Both the position numbers and the translations under genes were made by a program. A DNA stretch of 56,340 bases, from NCBI GenBank assembly GCA_029558735.1, contig JAKQDP010000063.1:1-56340 (forward strand). Reading direction: 5' to 3'. Shown one piece after another: positions 40,530 to 53,917 of the stretch (the stretch's first letter is position 1; each line of letters starts with the position of its first letter). The notes below the pieces were generated by a model. That model searched no databases and had not been told where the DNA came from. It saw only the letters and a list, made by a program, of their open reading frames with translations. Source of the DNA: a bacterium. Lineage in GTDB: Bacteria > Patescibacteriota > Patescibacteriia > 2-01-FULL-39-33.

Positions 40530-42116
40530 CTATAACAAACTCCGACCGGTCATATCGTCCGGCTTGGGCAAATCCATAATTTTCAGAATAGTCGGCGCCA
40601 CATCAGACAATAGTCCCGCCGGTTTGACTAAACTCAAATCAGAATTGGGACTGTCCGCCCCACCGCCGGTCTTACCTTCCCAGTGCCGGCCGACAATGAT
40701 TAACGGCACCGGATAGGTGCTGTGTTCTTTATCCATATTGCCTGATTGCAGATTGATTAGTTCCTCAGCATTGCCATGATCGGCCGTAATAACCACCACC
40801 CCGTTATGGGCCAGGGTCGCCTCAACAATCTTTTTTACGCCATTATCAACTGCTTCGCAGGCTTTAATCGTCGCTTTTAAGTCACCAGTATGACTCACCA
40901 TGTCGCCATTGGCAAAGTTCATAACAATAAAATCATAATGCTTAGCCATAATTTCCTTAATGGCACGCTGCGTGATCTCCTTAGCTGACATTTCCGGTTT
41001 ATCAGCATAAGAATCAACTCGCGGCGATGGTATTAATATTCGCTCTTCGCCGACAAACGCCTTTTCTTGGCCGCCATTAAAAAAGAAAGTGACATGAGCG
41101 TATTTTTCCGTCTCAGCAATATGCAATTGCTTCAGGCCGGCCTCGGCAATCACCTTAGCTAAGGGAGTGTCGATGGTTTCCGGCGGAAAGGCGACCTCGA
41201 CTGGCAAATCCTTCTCATATTCGGTCATAGTGACGAAATATAACCCGGACAGATATTCCCGGGGAAATTTGGCAAAACCGGGCAACACAAACGCTTTGGT
41301 CAATTCCCTGGCCCGATCCGCGCGAAAATTAAAAAATATTACCGCGTCTTGATGGCTGATGCGGCCCACCGGTTGGCCGTGTTCAGTAATCACTGTCGGA
41401 ATAAATTCCTCGTCGTAAATTTTTTTATCATAAGACGCTTTAACCGCTTCTACCGGATCACCAAAAAAATTTTCCGCCTCGCCGTTAACCATGGCATTAT
41501 AAGCCAAAACCAACCGCTCCCAATGATTATCACGATCCAGGGCATAAAATCGACCGGAAATAGAAGCGATTTTACCGATTTTTGAATCAACTAGCCGACT
41601 GTTGGCCTCGGCGACAAAATCAAGACCAGAGTTGTAAGGCATATCGCGACCATCCAAAATCGCATGAACCAAAACCTGATTTTTTAATTTTTCTTTCTGA
41701 CACAGTTCAACTAAAGCGTAAAAATGATCCATTGAAGAATGGACGCCGCCGGAAGAAACTAAGCCGACTAGATGAAGTTTGGAATTATTCCGACGAACAT
41801 GATTAATGGCGGCTAAAAATTTTTTATTGACAAAAAAATCACCGTCAGTGATTGCTTTGTTAATCCGCGGTAAATTTTGATAGACTAATTTACCCGAACC
41901 AAGGTTAAGGTGGCCGACTTCACTATTACCCATCTCCCCCCAAGACAACCCAACTGCTTCGCCGGCCGCCTGCAGAGACAGGGCCGGATAAGTTTTGATC
42001 AAATTATCAATAGTGGGCGTTTTGGCCAAAGCAATGGCATTGCTCCGTGATGGCGGGGCAATCCCCCAGCCATCCAAAACAATCAGTACCACCGGTTTAG
42101 GACGTTCTTGTTCCAT
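40530..42116 (-). CDS. gpmI: 2,3-bisphosphoglycerate-independent phosphoglycerate mutase (copy 1)
   Basis: LDGWG, GNSEVGHLNLGSG, LDGRD, FFNFRADRARELT, TADHGNAEEL. Confidence 0.95.
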   Translation of the reverse strand: MEQERPKPVVLIVLDGWGIAPPSRSNAIALAKTPTIDNLIKTYPALSLQAAGEAVGLSWGEMGNSEVGHLNLGSGKLVYQNLPRINKAITDGDFFVNKKFLAAINHVRRNNSKLHLVGLVSSGGVHSSMDHFYALVELCQKEKLKNQVLVHAILDGRDMPYNSGLDFVAEANSRLVDSKIGKIASISGRFYALDRDNHWERLVLAYNAMVNGEAENFFGDPVEAVKASYDKKIYDEEFIPTVITEHGQPVGRISHQDAVIFFNFRADRARELTKAFVLPGFAKFPREYLSGLYFVTMTEYEKDLPVEVAFPPETIDTPLAKVIAEAGLKQLHIAETEKYAHVTFFFNGGQEKAFVGEERILIPSPRVDSYADKPEMSAKEITQRAIKEIMAKHYDFIVMNFANGDMVSHTGDLKATIKACEAVDNGVKKIVEATLAHNGVVVITADHGNAEELINLQSGNMDKEHSTYPVPLIIVGRHWEGKTGGGADSPNSDLSLVKPAGLLSDVAPTILKIMDLPKPDDMTGRSLL

Positions 42117-42119
42117 AAG

Positions 42120-43673
42120 TTAAATAAGACTTTTTCTGGTCATTTCGGCTGGCGGCTGAAGATCAAAAAAATTTAGAATCGTCGGGGCAACATCACCTAA
42201 ATACCCCCGTTTGATTTTCTGTTTTTTTTCTTTTTTGCTGACGATAATCAACGGCACCGGATTGGTGGTGTGCTCAGTGATTATCTCTTTGGTTTCAAGA
42301 TTCAACATGGATTCTAGATTACCATGATCAGCGGTAATAAGCAAGACAACATTATTCTTCAAGCAAGCTTGGGCCACTTTTTTGACATACTTATCAACCG
42401 CTTCAGCAGTTCTAATACCAGCCCTGATATTACCAGTATGGCCAATCATATCCGGAGCAGCAAAATTGGCGCAAATAAAATCATGCATTTTTAAGCTGGC
42501 GATTAATTTCTGGGCCACCTTGGCCATCGACATTGCCGGCGTTTGATCATAGGCCGTCACTCTTGGCGAAGGGATTCTGACCCGTTTTTCCCCGGCCACT
42601 GGATCAGCATAGCCGCCGTTAAAAAAAAAGGTGACATGAGCGTATTTTTCACTTTCAGCAATATAAAGCTGACGAAAATCATGTAACATCATCGGCAGGG
42701 TGTTACGCAAATCCGCCGACGGATAAGCCGTTAAGATACTGTCCAAATCCGGACCAAAATCAGTCATCGCCACGAAAGCGATGTTTCGTAAAACACTCTT
42801 TCTTTTCGGGGCACCGGGATTTTTTCGCTCAAATTCTTGCTGAACAAACGGCTTGGCCAATTGACGCGCCCGATCACTGCGCAAATTGAAAAAAATTATC
42901 GCATCACCATTCTCAATTCTTCGAACCATTTTCTTGCGCCGCTGAATTACTATCGGTTCAATAAACTCATCGGTAATATCGGCATTGTAAGCGCGAGTAA
43001 TCCCGGCTTGGGGGCTGACGCTAATATGACCGCGACCGACAGTCATCGCCTCATACGCCCAAACAGTGCGGTCCCAGGCTTTTTTTCTATCCATAGCATA
43101 AAATCGACCGATAACAGTAGCAATAACTTCATGAGGCTTTAAAAAGCGTTCCAACGCCATCATTGATTTTAAGGAAGACCGGGGCGGCGAATCCCGACCA
43201 TCGGTAAATAAATGCAAATAAACATTCTTCACTTTCTGGGCCCGCAATAAAGTCAGTAAAGCCAATAAATGATCCGGGTCGCTATGGGGGCTCTGGCCAT
43301 TGGACAACAATCCCATTAAATGAACGGCGGATTTATTTTTTCGAGTATGACTAATCGCCGCGACAAAAGCCGGGTTTTTAAAAAATTGGCCGGTGTTAAT
43401 TTGTTTAGAAATCTTAACCACTTCCTGATCAGCGATGCGACCGGCGCCCAGATTGATATGACCGGCTTCGGAATTCCCTACTTGATTGGTTGGCAAGCCA
43501 GCGCACTTGCCGGAGGCGCAAAGTGTTGTCCAGGAATAATCGCGATAAAGCGAATCTAAAAATGGTGTTTTGGCAAGATGAATCGGATTGCCCGCGTCTG
43601 GCCGACCCAAACCCCAACCGTCCAAAATTAACAAAACTACTCTTCGGCGATTAATTGCATTCCTTTTAACCAT
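42120..43673 (-). CDS. gpmI: 2,3-bisphosphoglycerate-independent phosphoglycerate mutase (copy 2)
   Basis: LDGWG, GNSEAGHINLGAG, TDGRD, FFNLRSDRARQLA, TADHGNLESM. Confidence 0.94.
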   Translation of the reverse strand: MVKRNAINRRRVVLLILDGWGLGRPDAGNPIHLAKTPFLDSLYRDYSWTTLCASGKCAGLPTNQVGNSEAGHINLGAGRIADQEVVKISKQINTGQFFKNPAFVAAISHTRKNKSAVHLMGLLSNGQSPHSDPDHLLALLTLLRAQKVKNVYLHLFTDGRDSPPRSSLKSMMALERFLKPHEVIATVIGRFYAMDRKKAWDRTVWAYEAMTVGRGHISVSPQAGITRAYNADITDEFIEPIVIQRRKKMVRRIENGDAIIFFNLRSDRARQLAKPFVQQEFERKNPGAPKRKSVLRNIAFVAMTDFGPDLDSILTAYPSADLRNTLPMMLHDFRQLYIAESEKYAHVTFFFNGGYADPVAGEKRVRIPSPRVTAYDQTPAMSMAKVAQKLIASLKMHDFICANFAAPDMIGHTGNIRAGIRTAEAVDKYVKKVAQACLKNNVVLLITADHGNLESMLNLETKEIITEHTTNPVPLIIVSKKEKKQKIKRGYLGDVAPTILNFFDLQPPAEMTRKSLI

Positions 43674-43734: not shown

Positions 43735-44991
43735 CTATTTCATTTCGTCCCAAATTTCCATCAACCGATTATATTTGGCGACGCGTTCGCTTCGGCAGAG
43801 CGAGCCAGTTTTAATATACTCAGCGCCGCAGGCGACCGCCAAATCAGAAATAAAATCATCCACTGTCTCGCCGCTCCGATGCGAGACGGCGATTTTGTAG
43901 CTATGCGTCTGGGCCAATTTAATCGCTTCCACGGTCTCGGTTAAACTGCCGATTTGATTTAATTTTATCAAAATGGCATTACTGACGCCCTGCTCTATTC
44001 CTTGTTGCAGCCTCTTGACGTTGGTCACAAACAGATCATCGCCCACCAAAGCGATTTTTTTACCAAGTTTATTAGTCAAGGTCTTCCAGCCGTCCCAATC
44101 ATCCTCAGCCAAGCCATCTTCCAATGATTCAATGGGATAACGAGTTAGCCAATCACTATACATTGCCACCATCTCCGCGGCCGATCTTTTTTTCTTATCT
44201 GCCACCATATTATAAATACCGTCTTTGTAAAATTCCGACGAAGCGGCATCAATGGCAATTTTGACATCTTTGCCGATTCTATAATTAGCGGCAGCAACCG
44301 CCTCCAAAATCACTTTAAGCGCCTGTTCATTACCCGGCAATTTCGGCGCATAGCCACCCTCGTCGCCAACCGTAGTCTGATAGCCTCGATCTTTTAAAAT
44401 CTTTTTCAAAGCATGAAAAATTTCCGCGCCGCAACGCACCGCCTCTTTGATATTTTTCTGTTGCGGTGTAATCATAAACTCCTGAATGTCAATCGACCAA
44501 CCGGCGTGGGCGCCGCCATTCATAATATTCATCATTGGCACCGGAAAAGACATCTTTTTTTGGGGCCAAAATTTTTTATGAAGATAAGCGTAAAGGGGCT
44601 TTTGGGCGTCAATCGCGCCAGCCCGGGCGACAGCTAATGATACGCCCAAAATTGCGTTAGCACCCAGTTTGGATTTGTTTTCCGTACCGTCAAGCTCGAG
44701 CATTAGCTTATCTATCTCTTTTTGTTGGCCGGCGGCCCAGCCCTTCAATTTAGGAGCAATTTTTTCGTTGACATTTTTAACCGCTTTCAATACTCCGTTG
44801 CCATCATATCTTTTTTTATCCCCGTCACGAAGCTCTAAAGCTTCATAACTGCCAGTCGAAGCGCCACTGGGCACTGCCGCCCAAGCCTTGACGCCGCTGG
44901 TTAATACCACTTCCGTTTCCACGGTCGGATTGCCACGCGAATCCAGAATTTCCCTTGCTTTGACTGACTTAATTTTTGACATACCGTTCAA
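43735..44991 (-). CDS. eno: Enolase
   Basis: [43 protein letters not shown]. Confidence 0.98.
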
Positions 44992-45041
44992 ATTGATTAT
45001 TTATTTCTAATAATTTTTAATTATAGCACAAACCGCGACCA

Positions 45042-45079
45042 AGTTAAAACAATCCGCCAAGAGGCGGATTGTTTTAACT
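45042..45079. terminator. Bidirectional terminator hairpin
   Basis: AGTTAAAACAATCCGCC-aaga-GGCGGATTGTTTTAACT, perfect 17-bp stem. Confidence 0.85.
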
Positions 45080-45092
45080 GTATTATTCTCAA

Positions 45093-45905
45093 TTATTTGG
45101 CAATTTCGTAAGTAATGTAAACATTAATACTGACCTCCTGACTGCCGGATTGGATATCAGCTTCGGGCACTGCCGCCGACAAAGCTTTTTGCTCCAAGCC
45201 ACCCATGCCGCCGATGCCATAAGCATAATTAACCGGATAAGGCTGATAAGAATCTTCAGAAAAACTGACAATCCGACCCAAATTAATGCCGACTTCATCA
45301 GCCAAAACTTTAGCCTTGTCTTTAGCTTGGGCGATCGCTTCTTTTCTCGCTTCAGCCCGATAGGTTTCCGGATCATCAATGGTAAAGTTGGGCCCGGAAA
45401 CGCTATTGGCGCCTTTCTCGCCAGCCATGGAAACAATTTTGCCGATATTATCAAAATTCCTCACCTTGATCTGGACCGACTGATTAACTTCGTAACCGGC
45501 CAAAGTCTGACGACCGTCGCTCCAATTATAGCGAGGATTAATTTGATAATAACTAGTCTTAATGTCCTCCTCGACAATCCGGTATTGATTCTTCAATTCG
45601 GCAATAATGGCATTCATCTTGTCAGTATTTTCTTTTTGAGCCGCTTCAACCGTCCCCTTTTCAGTAATGATGCCGACATTGATTATCGCCACGTCCGGCT
45701 TGGCGGTCACCTTGCCAGTGCCAGAGATACTAACTTGATACTGGTATTCCGGGCTCTTGCCAATGTAATTAAAATTTTCCCAAGAATTTCTCGTCAAACT
45801 AACGAGATAAGCGGACAACAAAATCATCACCACCACCACAAACGGCAACAAAATTAATTTGGCATGATATTTTGTCGATCGATTGCTTAAATTTTGTTCT
45901 GTCAT
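45093..45905 (-). CDS. SIMPL domain (DUF541) protein
   Basis: ISGTGKVTAKPDVAIINVGI...YEVNQSVQIKVRNFDNIGKIV. Confidence 0.9.
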   Translation of the reverse strand: MTEQNLSNRSTKYHAKLILLPFVVVVMILLSAYLVSLTRNSWENFNYIGKSPEYQYQVSISGTGKVTAKPDVAIINVGIITEKGTVEAAQKENTDKMNAIIAELKNQYRIVEEDIKTSYYQINPRYNWSDGRQTLAGYEVNQSVQIKVRNFDNIGKIVSMAGEKGANSVSGPNFTIDDPETYRAEARKEAIAQAKDKAKVLADEVGINLGRIVSFSEDSYQPYPVNYAYGIGGMGGLEQKALSAAVPEADIQSGSQEVSINVYITYEIAK

Positions 45906-45933
45906 AACTTTATATTAATTATTTTTTATTATT

Positions 45934-47109
45934 TTAATAAACTATTTTCTTCAATCCCGGCAATTTTCGACCTTCCAAGTATTCCAGCATGGCTCCACCG
46001 CCGGTCGAAATAAAGGTAAATTTTTTCTCCAAACCCAGCGCCCGAATGAGTTGAACTGTTTCACCGCCGCCGACAATTGTCTTGGCTTTAGACTGAGCTA
46101 AAATTTTAATCAGCTCCTTGGTGCCCCGAGCAAAAAATGGCGTCTCGATTAGCCCCAGCGGCCCGTTCCAAACAATGGTTTTCGCCTGATTGATAATGTG
46201 TCGATAAAGCTCAATCGTCTCCGGTCCAACATCAAGAATTAATTCATTCTTTCTGATATCGCCCAAGGCGTCGATTCGTCCCTTAATTGCCTTAAAGCTG
46301 CCGGCAAAGATGCCATCAACCGGCACCCGCAATTGATCGTCGGTCAATTTGATTTTTCTGATTTCGCCAATCATTTTTGGTTCGACCAATGACTTGCCAA
46401 CCGCCACTCCCATCGCCTTCAAAACCGTATTAGCTAAGGCCCCACCCAATAAAACATAATCAGCATGTTTCAAAAAACGGGAGATCACCTTGATTTTGGT
46501 GGAAATTTTGGCGCCACCGATAATTGCCACTAGCGGCTTGGGCTGCTGCTCAAAAATGCCACTTAAATTTTTCAATTCCCGTTCCAATAACAAGCCGGCA
46601 TAACTGGGCAAATAATGCTGAATGGTCGCCACTGACACATGCTCCCGATGGGACACGGCAAAACCGTCATTGACAAAAATATCACCCAATTTGGCCAGCT
46701 GCTTAGCAAAAACTTTATTGCCTCTTTCTTCTCGCCGGTCAAATCTGACATTTTCCAAAAGCAGAATCTCACCCGGTTTCATTTGCTCGATTTTCTGCTC
46801 CACTTCTTTGCCGATAATAATATTGCTCTTATAAATACTCTTGCATAACAACTGGCTTAAGCGGACCGCTACCGGATCCAGACGCAATTTTTCCACCTTT
46901 TTGCCCTCCGGCCGGCCCAAGTGAGCCATAATAACTATCTTGGCTTTTTTCTTGATTAAATATTTAATAGTTGGCAAACTTTGCGTCAGACGATAATCCT
47001 CATTTTTTCCTACTTGACCGTCTTTGTTAATAGGTACGTTAAAATCAACCCGAAGTAACACTCGTCGGCCTTTTAATTTTTTCGCTTGTCTAATGGATTT
47101 TATTTTCAT
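45934..47109 (-). CDS. pgk: Phosphoglycerate kinase
   Basis: RVLLRVDFNVPI, MAHLGRPEG, VNDGFAVSHREHVS, VGGGETV. Confidence 0.97.
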   Translation of the reverse strand: MKIKSIRQAKKLKGRRVLLRVDFNVPINKDGQVGKNEDYRLTQSLPTIKYLIKKKAKIVIMAHLGRPEGKKVEKLRLDPVAVRLSQLLCKSIYKSNIIIGKEVEQKIEQMKPGEILLLENVRFDRREERGNKVFAKQLAKLGDIFVNDGFAVSHREHVSVATIQHYLPSYAGLLLERELKNLSGIFEQQPKPLVAIIGGAKISTKIKVISRFLKHADYVLLGGALANTVLKAMGVAVGKSLVEPKMIGEIRKIKLTDDQLRVPVDGIFAGSFKAIKGRIDALGDIRKNELILDVGPETIELYRHIINQAKTIVWNGPLGLIETPFFARGTKELIKILAQSKAKTIVGGGETVQLIRALGLEKKFTFISTGGGAMLEYLEGRKLPGLKKIVY

Positions 47110-47250: not shown

Positions 47251-47505
47251 TTACTCCCCTTCTATGTCCTCCAGCACCCACTTGTCTCCGCTGACTTTAT
47301 TGACCGCTATTTCCAAACCATCAGCCGAACCGCCCTGGGCCAGCAGCTTGATATTGAAAATAAGATTTTCCGGCAACACTTCTTCGCCGTGCTCAACAAT
47401 CGAGCCCAAGCTGATAGTGGCTTTGGTTATTTTTTTTAGATTATTTTTTGCCGCATAATCCATAATTGTCTTATAGATTATGTCAGCCAGATGAAAATCG
47501 TGCAT
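47251..47505 (-). CDS. hypA: HypA-like hydrogenase nickel-insertion protein lacking the zinc-finger domain
   Basis: MHDFHLADIIYKTIMDYAAKNNLKKITKATISLGSI...LPENLIFNIKLLAQGGSADGLEIAVNKVSGDKWVLEDIEGE; N-terminal MHD; no Cys residues. Confidence 0.7.
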   Translation of the reverse strand: MHDFHLADIIYKTIMDYAAKNNLKKITKATISLGSIVEHGEEVLPENLIFNIKLLAQGGSADGLEIAVNKVSGDKWVLEDIEGE

Positions 47506-47517
47506 AAAATTTTATAA

Positions 47518-48150
47518 TTAATTTTCCAAATCAATAAATTTAGCCGTATTAAAAACTTCCGTTTCAGCTGATACCAACCTATAATTATCTATAATAATAA
47601 TTGCCCGTCCACGATCATCTGTTAATAAGTTTAGCTTCTCTTTGGCCAGACTAAGACCTGAATCATAACTATTCGTGAAACAAAGATATAAATCTCTTTG
47701 GTCAGTATGCAGGGTTGGAATCAATTTAACAGAGTTATCATCAAAATTCATAAAACATAATCTTTCGATGCCACCAAAACCGCTATTTGTCTCGTATTTA
47801 TAATCGCCAGTAATAACAGCTCGGCCAGAAAATTGTATCTTGACATTATAATCGCCCAGAGAAAAGCTATCAAGTGCGGGCTCAATAGAATTAATGGTCA
47901 TATTTCCCATCTTATCACCAACTTTTACCCCACTAAGATTAAATGAATTATTACCAGTTTCCGAATCTTCATCCATGGGTCCGTAAGAATTATCATCACT
48001 AATATCTGGATTATTCTCCGAGCTACCGCTGCCACTATTTATATTATTATCTTCAATCGTCACTAAATCTTCATCTGGATTTAAATAATTTTGTTGCTCT
48101 TTCTGAAATTTTAAGGAACAGCCGGAAAAAAGCAACAAGCAACAAACCAT
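47518..48150 (-). CDS. Putative lipoprotein, unknown function
   Basis: Lipobox LFSGC, Ser/Asn/Asp-rich linker, C-terminal globular domain. Confidence 0.6.
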   Translation of the reverse strand: MVCCLLLFSGCSLKFQKEQQNYLNPDEDLVTIEDNNINSGSGSSENNPDISDDNSYGPMDEDSETGNNSFNLSGVKVGDKMGNMTINSIEPALDSFSLGDYNVKIQFSGRAVITGDYKYETNSGFGGIERLCFMNFDDNSVKLIPTLHTDQRDLYLCFTNSYDSGLSLAKEKLNLLTDDRGRAIIIIDNYRLVSAETEVFNTAKFIDLEN

Positions 48151-48167
48151 TTTTAATTAATATTTAT

Positions 48168-49499
48168 TTAATGCGTGGCGCAGGCAATACACGGGTCATA
48201 AGCGCGAATCAGAGCGCGGATTTTTATCGCCCGCTTTTTCGGATTCAACTTCATCACATTAGGGATATAAGCCAAAACATCCTGTTCCAAATTCTTAAGA
48301 TAGGACACGGTCGGCGTGATAATATTGCAATTAGTCAGATAACCGTTTTTATCTATTTTGTAATGGTGGTACAAAGTGCCCCGCGGCGCTTCGATCGCGT
48401 CAACGCCAACCGTCTCACAACTAAGCGGATTGGCACCGGCAATCAAATTTAATGAAAGCCGAGCATCCTCTTTACTCTTACCCCCTCCTAACCTCCCCAT
48501 TCGCAAAGAGGAGGAATCAGATAATAAATCTCGCAAAATTTTTTTGGCTTCTTCCAGGCAGTGGATGATTTCAATCGCTTGGGCAGTAATGTTTTCAAAA
48601 GTATTATATTGCGGCAATTGCCAATTCATCCCCTTGAGCAATCCCTTGGCCAATGGGTTGAGCTGTTGCCAATTGTTGTTAATTCGCGCCAAAGCCCCGA
48701 CCATAAACGGCTCGCCGTCCAAAGTGGCTGATTTGGCCGCCCGATAGGGCTCTTCTATTTCTTTGATATTTTGAGTATATTTTTCCGCCTTAATAATTCT
48801 GGACTGGCTGGCTGACGGAAAAATTTTAATATCGCCGTCATATAGAGCATACTCTTTGGAATTGGTCAGACTGACAAAAGTGGTCGGCCGGCTGAACTTT
48901 GGATACTTAATGGAAATAACAAAGTTGGCCAAGCCCAAAGCATTTTTCAAAACAACTTCATACTGGTCGGCCAAATTTTTTAATTCATTTTTTTCCGGCA
49001 ACACTTTAAAACCACCAACCTCACAGGCAATCGGATGAACCGCTCGACCGCCAACCACTTCGATAATTTTGAGCGCCCACTGTCTGGTATTGATGGCGCA
49101 TTGTGTTTCTTTGGGATATTTTTTGACAAAATTCAAATCGTTTTCAATATTGAAAAAATCCGGCAATGACAAAAAGAAAAGATGCAGGGCATGGCTATGG
49201 ATGATTTGAGCCAGATTGATCAACTTACGCAGCTTGACTGTTTGTTGGCTGGGACGAATTTCAAAAGCATTTTCAATCGCTTTAATTGATGACAATTTAT
49301 GGACTACCGGACAAATACCGCAAATGCGGGAAGTGATAATCGGCGCTTCTTTAAAATGACGGCCGATCAAAATCCCCTCAATCAGCCGCGCCCCCTCGGT
49401 GGTAATCAATTTTGCCGATTGGACATCTCCCTTTAAGATTTCAGCCACAAAATCAGCGTGGCCTTCCATTTTGCCGATATGGTTTATTTGAATTTTCAT
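48168..49499 (-). CDS. hydA: [NiFe]-hydrogenase large (alpha) subunit, group 3b/sulfhydrogenase-like
   Basis: L1 RICGICPVVHKLSS and C-terminal DPCIACATH* Ni ligands; EAPRGTLYHHY. Confidence 0.93.
   Translation of the reverse strand: MKIQINHIGKMEGHADFVAEILKGDVQSAKLITTEGARLIEGILIGRHFKEAPIITSRICGICPVVHKLSSIKAIENAFEIRPSQQTVKLRKLINLAQIIHSHALHLFFLSLPDFFNIENDLNFVKKYPKETQCAINTRQWALKIIEVVGGRAVHPIACEVGGFKVLPEKNELKNLADQYEVVLKNALGLANFVISIKYPKFSRPTTFVSLTNSKEYALYDGDIKIFPSASQSRIIKAEKYTQNIKEIEEPYRAAKSATLDGEPFMVGALARINNNWQQLNPLAKGLLKGMNWQLPQYNTFENITAQAIEIIHCLEEAKKILRDLLSDSSSLRMGRLGGGKSKEDARLSLNLIAGANPLSCETVGVDAIEAPRGTLYHHYKIDKNGYLTNCNIITPTVSYLKNLEQDVLAYIPNVMKLNPKKRAIKIRALIRAYDPCIACATH
48478..48517. repeat. 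Palindromic repeat-like segment embedded in the hydrogenase large-subunit ORF
   Basis: TTACCCCCTCCTAACCTCCCCATTCGCAAAGAGGAGGAAT; in frame, encodes Ser/Gly-rich SSSLRMGRLGGGKS. Confidence 0.5.
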
Positions 49500-49567: not shown

Positions 49568-49849
49568 TCAGTCCAATAACTCAATCAATTTTATGGCCGC
49601 TTCCTCATAATTGCCGGCCAAAGCCAACTCCCTGATATCATTATTGGCTTGACAATCAATTAATTCGCTTATTTTTTCCCCATACTTCAATACCCAATCA
49701 AGTTGAATCTGATAATCGGGCTTTTCCCCAAGCATCTGCCGCATCACTTCGCGCTGAAGCAAATCCCGATGCTTTAAATCAAGGCGATCAATATCCGGCT
49801 GTTCCGGGGTTTCTAAAGACATATTTTTGCCGATTATTTTTTCTGCCAA
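49568..49849 (-). CDS. Hypothetical 93-aa protein, overlapping the upstream AbrB-like gene
   Basis: MAEKIIGKNMSLETPEQPDIDRLDLKHRD...NNDIRELALAGNYEEAAIKLIELLD; start lies within the last codons of 49834-50001. Confidence 0.6.
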   Translation of the reverse strand: MAEKIIGKNMSLETPEQPDIDRLDLKHRDLLQREVMRQMLGEKPDYQIQLDWVLKYGEKISELIDCQANNDIRELALAGNYEEAAIKLIELLD

Positions 49850-50059: not shown

Positions 50060-50899
50060 TCATTTCAATTTTTTAATTTTATTATCAATTTTATTAACCT
50101 TAGACTTTCCGAACTTTCGATTTTTCTTCCCCTGCATTTCTTCCAGCCTTTTTAAAATGGTATCTCTGGCGCCAAACACTTCCATTATCCGATAAACTTG
50201 CTCCCGAGAAAAATGCTTTAATAAATAATTCATAAAATTTTCCACCTGCGCGCCGTCAAATAAGCCCCGGCAACCCCAACAGGCCTGCTTGGATTTTAGG
50301 CAGACGGCCTTGCAACCACCCAAGGTAATCGGCCCCAAGCAGATCTCCTCTTGCTGTAACAAGCATTGATATCCCCGACTCTGACATTCATAACAAACGG
50401 GATTTTGCGGAATGCGGAAACTGCCTTTTTTCAATAATTGATTAGCCAACTCAATAAATTCATCACCATCAATCGGACAACCGGGAATGACATAATCAAC
50501 TTTGACAAAATTGTCCACTTCTTTAATATCGGGGTTAGCTACTTTTAATTTTTTATATACTGCTTTAATCGCTCTGGTCTTGGACGCGTAATTTTTGAGT
50601 TCCCACACTCCGCCCAAGGCGGCGCAATTGCCCACCACCACCAACTTGTCCGAACGACAGCGCATCTCCTTGAGTAATTTGATATTTGCCTTGGTAACCG
50701 GATTACCCTCGACAAAACAAATATCATAATGCTCCGCCAGTATCGGCTCATCTTCCACTAGCCGGAATTCTTCCAACTGCACCTTGGCCAGCCAATCCAA
50801 AAATCTCCTACCCTGGTCAAGCATCACAAATTGACAACCCTCGCAGGAAGTCAATCCGATAATGGCTATTTTGGGTTTGATGTTTTTTCTTTTGGTCAT
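50060..50899 (-). CDS. hydD: [NiFe]-hydrogenase small (delta) subunit
   Basis: GLTSCEGCQFVML, VVVGNCAALGG, VIPGCPIDGDEF, CYECQSRGYQC...GGCKAVC...CWGCRG. Confidence 0.93.
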   Translation of the reverse strand: MTKRKNIKPKIAIIGLTSCEGCQFVMLDQGRRFLDWLAKVQLEEFRLVEDEPILAEHYDICFVEGNPVTKANIKLLKEMRCRSDKLVVVGNCAALGGVWELKNYASKTRAIKAVYKKLKVANPDIKEVDNFVKVDYVIPGCPIDGDEFIELANQLLKKGSFRIPQNPVCYECQSRGYQCLLQQEEICLGPITLGGCKAVCLKSKQACWGCRGLFDGAQVENFMNYLLKHFSREQVYRIMEVFGARDTILKRLEEMQGKKNRKFGKSKVNKIDNKIKKLK

Positions 50900-50981: not shown

Positions 50982-51725
50982 TCACGGATTGACCGCGGCT
51001 AAAGTCATTTTAGTATACTTATCCAAGTTCTGAGCCTGTTCGATACTTAAACATTCAATCGCCCAATAGTGATGGAAAGCGACGACGCTGCCGGTATCAA
51101 CCGCCGAATCATTGGGATTGAGTATTCCCCAATCAACCATTTTTTTCTCCGGCTTGCCGATTCTGACGATCCGCTTATAATCAAACAACAGCGGCTGATA
51201 CATAACTGTCAATTGTTCGCCACGCTCAATGACAATACCGGAACAAACGCGACAGCTATCCAGGCTGTTCTGGATTGATTTTGTCACCAACGAATCCAGC
51301 TCTATACCCGGTCGAGTAAAAAAATATAATACTGACAAGCTGTGGTGGGCTCGAGCTTTTTCCAGACTAATAGCCCGAAACATTAAGGCAATATGCTCGG
51401 GATTCCAGCCTTCGCGCTTAACGTCCTGTTCAATCACCCAACCCACCGCCTCTGGCGTCACTTTATCCAATAAGCCATTCCCCAACCAATATGCCTCAAC
51501 CACCCGATCATCAAAAGGATCGCTGATGCTATTGGCTCGAGCAATCAGAGTGTAATAGGGGGTGGCTACTTCGAACTGCTTCAAAATTTCCCTAATGGTT
51601 AATTCGGCAAAATCCGCTCGTCCGGTAACATAATCGAAAAGAACTTTATGGGCGTCTTTGGGTCCGCAACGCTCCAACATATTCGGCTTAATGGAATAAG
51701 CCGCCGCTCGCTTAAGTCCGTTCAT
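50982..51725 (-). CDS. Hydrogenase-locus protein of unknown function (DUF6390-like)
   Basis: PNMLERCGPKD...DDRVVEAYWLGNGLLD...AFHHYWAIECLS; start set at MNGLKRAAAYS with SD GGGGAGGAGA inside hypC; family assigned from memory. Confidence 0.6.
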   Translation of the reverse strand: MNGLKRAAAYSIKPNMLERCGPKDAHKVLFDYVTGRADFAELTIREILKQFEVATPYYTLIARANSISDPFDDRVVEAYWLGNGLLDKVTPEAVGWVIEQDVKREGWNPEHIALMFRAISLEKARAHHSLSVLYFFTRPGIELDSLVTKSIQNSLDSCRVCSGIVIERGEQLTVMYQPLLFDYKRIVRIGKPEKKMVDWGILNPNDSAVDTGSVVAFHHYWAIECLSIEQAQNLDKYTKMTLAAVNP

Positions 51726-51927
51726 TTTTTCTCTCCTCCCCAATTAAATCCAATACCGCCTGCGCCTCATTAGCCCCTATTTTATTAACAATAATTCCAT
51801 TGACTGTCAAGACCCAATCACCTTGTTTTAGATCGGGAATCAAAACGGCATTAACCTTGCGACCGTCAAACAATTCGGCCCGGTCGCCTGAAATATTTTT
51901 AATTTGGAGAGGGATGGCGAGACACAT
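51712..51927 (-). CDS. hypC: HypC/HupF-like hydrogenase maturation chaperone
   Basis: MCLAIPLQIKNISGDRAELFDGRKVNAVLIPDLKQGDWVLTVNGIIVNKI; N-terminal MCLAIP. Confidence 0.88.
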   Translation of the reverse strand: MCLAIPLQIKNISGDRAELFDGRKVNAVLIPDLKQGDWVLTVNGIIVNKIGANEAQAVLDLIGEERKNERT

Positions 51928-52025: not shown

Positions 52026-52853
52026 TTATAGACTGTAGTAATCCTTAATATCCAGCCAGCGAAATACCGGACCATCCTTGCAAACATAAAATGGGCCGAT
52101 AGCGCAGTGCTGACAGACACCAATGCCGCAATGCATCCGTTTTTCCAAAGAGAGGATAATATTTTCGTCGCTTAATTTCTTATGCTTCAGTTCTTTGATG
52201 ACAAATCTATACATCACTGGCGGACCGACCAAAACCGCTACCGTCTGGGCGCTGATTTTTATCCGGCCAAGCAAATCCGTCACCAAGCCTCTGTCTCCCT
52301 TCCAATTAGTTGACGGTTTTTCCAAAATGACTTTTAATTCCGCCCGGCGATTCCAAGCGGCATGATTCTTTTTAAACAGCATCGTCTCTTCACTGGCACA
52401 GCCGTAAAGTATCTGTAAAGTTTTGCTTTCCAATCGTCCGGCCAGATAATCAATAATAAGCGGACGCAACGGCACAAAGCCGCAACCGCCGCCAACAAGT
52501 AAAAGCGGCTTGCCCTTAAATAAGTCAACATCAAATCCGTTACCGAATGGGCCGCGGATGTCGACGCAATCACCAGCAGATAGACTATTTAATTTATTAG
52601 TCAAAACACCAATATCCCTAATAGCCAGCTCAAAAAAAGTTTCACTATCGTTGGGCGACGAACAGATACTGATTGGGCACTCGCCCCAGCCAGGCAATCC
52701 TATTTGCACAAATTGTCCGGGCAAGAAATGAAAATTTTTCTTGATTTCCGAGTCAATAAATTCCAGCCGCAACAACTTGGTGTCAACCGACTCCTGACTA
52801 GCTGATATAATCCTGACTTTATTGGTTTGATAGATGTTGAGCATAAAAAACAC
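52026..52853 (-). CDS. hydG: Sulfhydrogenase gamma subunit / NAD(P)H diaphorase (FAD, NAD(P), [2Fe-2S])
   Basis: LLLVGGGCGFVPLRPLI; LEKRMHCGIGVCQHCAIGPFYVCKDGPVF. Confidence 0.93.
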   Translation of the reverse strand: MFFMLNIYQTNKVRIISASQESVDTKLLRLEFIDSEIKKNFHFLPGQFVQIGLPGWGECPISICSSPNDSETFFELAIRDIGVLTNKLNSLSAGDCVDIRGPFGNGFDVDLFKGKPLLLVGGGCGFVPLRPLIIDYLAGRLESKTLQILYGCASEETMLFKKNHAAWNRRAELKVILEKPSTNWKGDRGLVTDLLGRIKISAQTVAVLVGPPVMYRFVIKELKHKKLSDENIILSLEKRMHCGIGVCQHCAIGPFYVCKDGPVFRWLDIKDYYSL

Positions 52854-52933: not shown

Positions 52934-53917
52934 TTAAACTTTCTTCAACACCTCCTCTATCTTTATTCCGACCGGACAAACTTTACTGCAGCGGCCACAG
53001 CCGACACAGCCGGGCATCATATATTCAAAGGGAATGCGCACGAATTTATGATAATACCAAAAAAATATTTTTTTACTGACAGTATCCAGTTCCTTGCCAC
53101 CGCCGGCAACCAAAGAAAAATCATTATAAAAACAACTACCCCATTTGCGCACCCGTTCGGGATTATCCGGGTCCACACTATCTTCCAAATCAAAACAAAA
53201 ACAAGTCGGACAATTGATGGAGCATTTACCGCAGGCAATACAAATTTTATTCAATTCATGCCAAATCCTTTTACCTTGTGAAGATTCCATTTTTTTCTTC
53301 AGAAGCAACATTTTTTTATCCGGACCTTTTTCAGAAATCGGACCGGCAAATTCAATGTGTTCGTAATCTTTGATGCCACCTTCTTCCAAAATATGCTGAC
53401 CCTTTTCTGAACCGGAATAAATTTTCATCCGACCGACGGCAAATTGGGCGATAAAAATATCAAAAATCAAATGTTCCAAAATATCTTCTTCAAAATTATG
53501 GCTGAATATTTTATATTTTTTGTAATCATTGGGCCAGCTGGAGCTGTAACCAATAATCAGGGTATTGCATCGCCTTTCTTGATAATAGACATCGCGACTA
53601 AAAACTAACTCCAATAAAGTCAACGCCTTGAGATCAACAACATTGACGCCAATAGCGGCTATTTTCGGCTGACTGGTTTTCGATTTGACTAATCGGCCGT
53701 CGCTAATGTCAAACATTTTTTCCCGTGCCGGTAAAAATAATGCCTTCCAGGTATTTGTGGGCATACGACCCGACCAATCAACATCGCCGATATCCCGGAC
53801 TTCTTTAATATTAATAACCGCACCGTCTTGTTGCGGCGCAAACAAAAAAAATTCTTCAGACAACTTATTCAAAAAAACCTGTATTTCATTGTTCATAATA
53901 AATACATTATAACACAA
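52934..53917 (-). CDS. hydB: Sulfhydrogenase beta subunit (two 4Fe-4S clusters)
   Basis: CIACGKCSINCPTCFCFDLED and CVGCGRCSKVCPVGIKIEEV. Confidence 0.9.
   Translation of the reverse strand: MCYNVFIMNNEIQVFLNKLSEEFFLFAPQQDGAVINIKEVRDIGDVDWSGRMPTNTWKALFLPAREKMFDISDGRLVKSKTSQPKIAAIGVNVVDLKALTLLELVFSRDVYYQERRCNTLIIGYSSSWPNDYKKYKIFSHNFEEDILEHLIFDIFIAQFAVGRMKIYSGSEKGQHILEEGGIKDYEHIEFAGPISEKGPDKKMLLLKKKMESSQGKRIWHELNKICIACGKCSINCPTCFCFDLEDSVDPDNPERVRKWGSCFYNDFSLVAGGGKELDTVSKKIFFWYYHKFVRIPFEYMMPGCVGCGRCSKVCPVGIKIEEVLKKV

Follow-up and report, generated by a model that had tools for sequence, protein, structure and literature searches.

The group 3b sulfhydrogenases of P. furiosus (SHI) and T. kodakarensis (HyhL) have precursors with a short C-terminal extension that is cut off by a protease of the M52 family, and their maturation uses HypA–F. 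The [NiFe]-hydrogenase encoded in the window (the whole 56,340-nucleotide stretch of DNA analysed here) is like these enzymes in its alpha, beta, gamma and delta subunits and in its nickel-binding motifs, but differs from them in that its genome is without the protease and without HypD, HypE and HypF. The C-terminal peptide is held to be a checkpoint for nickel insertion, and its removal in the soluble hydrogenase of R. eutropha results in a nickel-free enzyme (PMC7294309). Natural absence of the extension has been reported for groups 2b, 2d, 4c, 4e and 4g, with group 3b not listed (PMC7294309, PMC12134894). As in the window enzyme, the large subunits of these groups end at the last His, but their maturation is believed to rely on the canonical Hyp proteins, whereas the window enzyme is of group 3b type and its genome lacks HypDEF. 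The window large subunit does not group with the extension-less enzymes of groups 2b/2d or group 4, and its best matches are to group 3b. A clade of group 3b from CPR bacteria, hyd1, has been described with a full-length small subunit and with beta and gamma subunits encoded alongside (Jaffe et al. 2020, PMC7304191), and by this description it is the window's clade; together, the window's clade and its sister clade match hyd1 and hyd2 of that study, the main text of which is silent on the extension, the protease, maturation, HypDEF and HydE/HydG (PMC7304191).

The hydrogenase cluster and the end of its large subunit

The features of the cluster are as follows, all on the minus strand.

47251..47505, minus strand: short HypA-like protein of 84 aa, with an MHD start and without the zinc domain
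48168..49499, minus strand: [NiFe]-hydrogenase large subunit (alpha) of 443 aa, the last residue being the final His (ORF, PF00374)
48168..48200, minus strand: YDPCIACATH and stop codon, without an extension (read from the sequence; clade-wide in relatives)
49568..49849, minus strand: small protein between the small and large subunits, in the same position in one close relative (L045)
50060..50899, minus strand: hydrogenase small subunit (delta) of 279 aa (PF01058, NCBIfam ShyD/HydD)
50982..51725, minus strand: DUF6390 protein (PF19927) with a helical N-terminal half and a HypC-like C-terminal domain; candidate HypDEF replacement
51712..51927, minus strand: HypC of 71 aa, with Cys2 kept and the conserved His changed to Val; overlaps the DUF6390 gene
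52026..52853, minus strand: gamma subunit, FAD/NAD(P)-binding
52934..53917, minus strand: beta subunit, 4Fe-4S protein

The original prediction held that the large subunit stops at the His of DPCxxCxxH without a maturation peptide, and the letters of the minus strand agree, with positions 48200..48168 reading TAT GAC CCG TGT ATT GCC TGC GCC ACG CAT TAA. There is no remnant of an extension past the stop, because the downstream frame reads ATA AAT ATT AAT TAA. Both nickel-binding motifs (RICGIC and DPCIAC) are intact, as had been noted, and C60, C63, C437, C440 and H443 are invariant in an alignment of 26 relatives. Among family models, those for the group 3b sulfhydrogenase alpha subunit (NCBIfam ShyA/HydA) fit the protein best, at scores below their equivalog cut-offs, and the closest solved structures (PDB 5yxy and 9e1j) are of group 3b alpha subunits from T. 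kodakarensis and P. furiosus. In the alignment with 5yxy, H443 pairs with the final His, which in that protein precedes a four-residue tail. The diaphorase and FeS partners that had been noted alongside are present as the beta and gamma subunits of the same cluster. The nickel motifs, the nearest relatives, the position in the tree (see below) and the accompanying beta and gamma genes indicate that the predicted enzyme is of group 3b type; the C-terminal extension, which is usual in this group without defining it, is absent.

Several other features of the cluster can be noted. A putative lipoprotein gene (47518-48150) is inserted between the large subunit and short hypA genes, with no similar ORF in related loci. 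Two tandem iPGM-type phosphoglycerate mutase genes, with an enolase and a phosphoglycerate kinase (window 40530-43673, with 43735-47109), adjoin the hydrogenase cluster, and their order is repeated in several relatives (L046, L048, L066 and L084). The short HypA is found beside 41 of the 51 loci of the window's clade and beside none of the 41 of the other set; among the HypA-like ORFs CxxC is missing in 63 of 64 and MH[DE] is kept in 63 of 64.

We searched the large-subunit protein against 381 genomes of the same class and read the loci, from which two clades emerge: the window's clade with 51 genomes (counting G241 and G146) and a sister clade with 39. All 49 readable C-termini of the window's clade end exactly at the His, and all 38 of those in the sister clade, which are ~30-37% identical to the window protein, have 7-28 extra residues, mostly starting with FLK. 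A second genome collection has 80 loci, some of its genomes being common to both. Here the 25 readable Patescibacteria loci all stop at the His, and the 53 group 3b-type loci outside the clade and from other phyla (Scalindua, other Planctomycetota, Nitrospira, Chloroflexota, Omnitrophota, archaea and more) all bear 7-28 additional residues. The stop at the His is natural and clade-wide. The original prediction had raised the question of whether related genomes share the stop, and they do at every one of these loci (49/49 and 25/25); it had also suggested a tree with group 3b large subunits, and in a tree of 79 of these the window's clade lies next to non-CPR 3b-type loci. The extension state changes a single time, on the branch leading to the window's clade (SH-aLRT 96; the tree is a quick one in which L095 has a long branch), and we infer that the extension was lost at the base of the clade.

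There are additional variations in the large subunits of other loci. In two members of the sister clade (L130 and L132, in G107 and G041) the last His is replaced by Asn (DPCMSCATNFLK), and in L075, L080, L082 and L083 the second nickel motif is DLCISCAVH, with the DPC absent. At L078 (7457-7888) a HypA start runs in frame into a large-subunit end (DPCMTCATH), as if recombined, and full copies of both are nearby.

Maturation protease and Hyp proteins

The whole genome containing the window (99% complete, 75 contigs) yields no M52/HycI protease, either with Pfam HycI or with a profile tuned to the phylum. Pfam HycI is weak in the phylum, with only two genomes above its cut-off, and we therefore built the second profile from the proteases adjoining the sister clade's genes, in which the G-N, Asp and His positions that an M52 protease should have are invariant. 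The tuned profile identifies a protease in all 39 sister-clade genomes, usually next to the gene for the large subunit. It identifies none in the 51 window-clade genomes, apart from one partial match in G247 (E=8e-4, inside a 412-aa ORF) that we judge to be spurious rather than a protease of the clade. A divergent protease overlooked by Pfam is rejected on these same counts. The extension and the protease thus co-occur without exception across both clades, although the association rests on two clades and is therefore phylogenetically close to one contrast. The observation that no protease gene is visible in the window can now be extended to the genome, and the earlier suggestion that the subunit is made in mature form and would bypass the protease checkpoint gains support from the clade-wide stop and the lack of an M52 gene. 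The best reading is a catalytic, protease-independent enzyme, given a natural stop shared across the clade, beta and gamma genes in the cluster, and no M52/HycI match in the genome.

The original prediction tacitly took the rest of maturation to be ordinary, and this did not hold: profile searches of the window genome find no HypD, HypE or HypF, and HypC is altered. When the HypD, HypF and HypE profiles are run on 80 hydrogenase-bearing genomes, all three proteins are present in the same six (G292, G065 and G175 of the window's clade and G374, G234 and G279 of the sister clade), with E values of ~1e-100 or lower for HypD and HypE. In the other 74, including G000, there are only weak partial HypE-like and HypF-like matches, and HypDEF are also absent from genomes in one to three contigs, such as G137, G123, G033 and G101. 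Because three independent profiles find the same six genomes, missed detection is unlikely. The window HypC retains Cys2 and, as read by eye, has a Val at the position of the conserved His in GDWVLTVNGIIV. This His is kept in all 23 HypC proteins with HypD in the locus and in one of the 26 whose locus has DUF6390. None of the 12 fused to HydE has it, nor does any of the 16 other Patescibacteria HypC, a few genomes being counted in both collections. The set that marks canonical Hyp-dependent maturation (HypD/E/F, an M52 endopeptidase, and a HypC with Cys2 and His) is not what the window genome contains.

DUF6390, HypC::HydE and family X

The DUF6390 gene is present in 58 of the 381 genomes, 57 of which also have the large subunit. 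Four residues (C20, H128, C158 and H218) are invariant in its alignment. When profiles are compared, the C-terminal part resembles HypC (96.5%, E 8e-10), and its C158 and H218 fall in register with the HypC Cys2 and His. DUF6390 thus shares these residues with the HypC/HybG chaperones; it differs from them in the added helical N-terminal half, which has two more invariant ligand-type residues and no solved relative. This half matches none of the HypD, HydE and HypC profiles, and resembles nothing solved in PDB sequence and Foldseek searches. The structural model is confident (pLDDT 93.8, pTM 0.92) and its best Foldseek match is HypC (probability 0.98, with a weak E-value of 0.06); HypC is also the best, weak match (E 0.004) when the DUF6390 profile is compared with PDB sequences. 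To our knowledge, no enzyme chemistry is known for DUF6390.

HydE is present in nine of the 80 genomes as a fusion to HypC, seven of which were read directly and two deduced from open-frame length. A second radical SAM gene adjoins HypC::HydE in five of the nine, and the three that were tested are HydG (564-599 bits, cut-off 312). The cluster motifs of HydE and HydG are intact, including the C-terminal CX2CX22C of HydG. These relatives of the window thus have both of the proteins familiar from [FeFe]-hydrogenase maturation, but with HydE fused to HypC and encoded within a [NiFe] operon, and the nine genomes are without an [FeFe]-hydrogenase; the window has DUF6390 instead. HypC::HydE and HydG are also present in one Scalindua contig and one Omnitrophota contig, where the adjoining genes of group 3b type retain the extension, and the module is therefore not tied to extension loss. 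Clusters of [NiFe]-hydrogenase genes in which HypC::HydE is followed by HydG occur in three phyla (L047 167-1432/3170-4537; L062 4388-5701/5667-7082; L090 3882-5180/5155-6564; L204 15571-16875/16839-18248; L217 8394-9710/9511-11103). We found no report in the open-access literature searched of HydE/HydG with a [NiFe]-hydrogenase, of the HypC fusion, or of DUF6390. The CO and CN of the H-cluster come from tyrosine with HydE, HydF and HydG (PMC3105041), and HybG, of the HypC family, delivers Fe(CN)2CO to the large subunit (PMC8692609). On this basis, HypC::HydE with HydG could plausibly serve the [NiFe] site by a hybrid route.

Family X, which has no Pfam match, was sought in the stretches read around the loci. 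It occurs in five more genomes, drawn from both clades, next to EamA and mostly next to HypC too, and these genomes are without HypDEF, HydE and DUF6390. The genes (L066 5244-6032, L078 11768-12610, L102 3954-4766, L112 6911-7684 and L121 5240-6028) have an invariant HHFGV. Similarity to HypC by profile is weak (20%), and in a model of moderate quality (pLDDT 74.7) the beta domain is HypC-like, with Foldseek probabilities of 0.94-1.00 and E values of ~0.1-0.3. An EamA permease gene lies within 1.5 kb of 43 of 52 DUF6390 genes and six of six family X genes (e.g. L054 12099-13022 and L066 4348-5271) and of none of 11 HypC::HydE genes, and its presence near DUF6390 genes hints at an imported precursor.

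The modules are mutually exclusive in the 80 genomes: 52 have DUF6390, nine have HydE, six have HypDEF, and none has two. Of the remaining 13, family X is present in five and a HypC-like relative in one (L116), and in seven (G331, G149, G232, G180, G322, G262 and G137) none of HypDEF, HydE, DUF6390 and family X was found, with contig ends or a masked stretch explaining some. Within the window's own family, DUF6390 is in G000 and G003 and HypC::HydE in five others. The module changes ~13 times on the large-subunit tree, and exclusivity is therefore seen repeatedly and not once. Only this count of changes is used; an independent-pairs test was dropped because its labels are complementary by construction, and the Fisher and hypergeometric p-values, which ignore kinship, are not relied on. 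By its position and its exclusivity, DUF6390 should meet the same need in the window organism as HypC::HydE and HydG would in its relatives.

Possible routes to the active site

The explanation we favor, and regard as probable, is that the locus encodes a catalytic, cytoplasmic, NAD(P)-linked 3b-type [NiFe]-hydrogenase of a Patescibacteria lineage that would mature without a protease and with an iron unit not built by HypD/E/F, using a path that involves DUF6390. The argument draws on gene presence and absence, homology, exclusive distribution and residue changes, from which we infer a maturation free of the protease and independent of HypDEF, and each biochemical step is a prediction. The large subunit would be made without a C-terminal peptide, with metal insertion not followed by endoproteolysis. 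DUF6390 may bind the Fe-CN-CO unit or a precursor of it, using its HypC-like C-terminal domain (C158 and H218) and its N-terminal half (C20 and H128), and would then hand the unit to the altered HypC for placement in the large subunit. The short HypA may aid the nickel step, after which the large subunit would close unaided. A broader proposal, which we consider evenly poised, is that Patescibacteria assemble the Fe-CN-CO unit without HypDEF by way of interchangeable modules (HypC::HydE, accompanied by HydG or not, DUF6390, and family X), all of which carry a HypC-like domain, and that the window's clade dispenses with the protease checkpoint; as part of this proposal, the route using HydE with or without HydG would be radical SAM chemistry borrowed from [FeFe]-hydrogenase assembly.

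We think it unlikely that the subunit is protease-free but receives its Fe-CN-CO unit or Hyp functions from a host or neighboring cell, with DUF6390 only receiving or carrying the unit. These bacteria are probably episymbionts, the genome containing the window is small (~1 Mb), and the distribution of EamA genes is as if DUF6390 and family X need import and HypC::HydE does not. However, there is no EamA gene among the ORFs neighboring DUF6390 in the window, we know of no import of such a labile Fe-CN-CO unit, and this account overlaps with the favored one. It seems somewhat less likely again that the protein has no Fe(CN)2CO site, and that a different metal center or other chemistry accounts for the loss of HypDEF and the protease. 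The missing HypD, HypE and HypF and the altered HypC would fit, but all four Ni/Fe cysteines are invariant, and in relatives the place of HypDEF is taken by HydE and HydG, whose known role is in CO/CN chemistry (PMC3105041), or HypDEF is kept.

Ordinary maturation, with HypDEF and the protease present and missed through assembly gaps or divergence, is improbable. The assembly is in 75 contigs, but the genome is nearly complete, the three profiles agree on the same six genomes, HypDEF are absent from genomes in one to three contigs too, and the HypC His is lost where HypD is absent. The H2 sensors HoxC and HupV are also without an extension and so share the C-terminal end, but a sensor is very improbable here given the group 3b-type phylogeny and the beta and gamma subunits in the cluster, and no kinase or PAS partner is seen among the neighboring ORFs; the original reading of a catalytic enzyme rather than a sensor appears sound on these grounds. 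A stop created by a sequencing error or frameshift can be dismissed, because all 49 readable clade members, and all 25 in the second collection, end at the same residue.

A group 3b-type subunit without the extension is a new exception, and the greater surprise is the replacement of HypDEF. A 3b-type clade without the peptide and without the protease is a natural test of the purpose of the checkpoint. Where the CO ligand comes from under anoxic conditions is listed in one review as an open question (PMC12134894), and genomes that lack HypDEF and keep the enzyme, with HydE, HydG or the HypC-like DUF6390 in the gap, make this question testable with few genes in a laboratory strain. Substitutes for HypDEF may offer simpler parts for hydrogenase production, and the filling of the HypDEF gap by other proteins in relatives suggests that there are alternative ways of building the active site.
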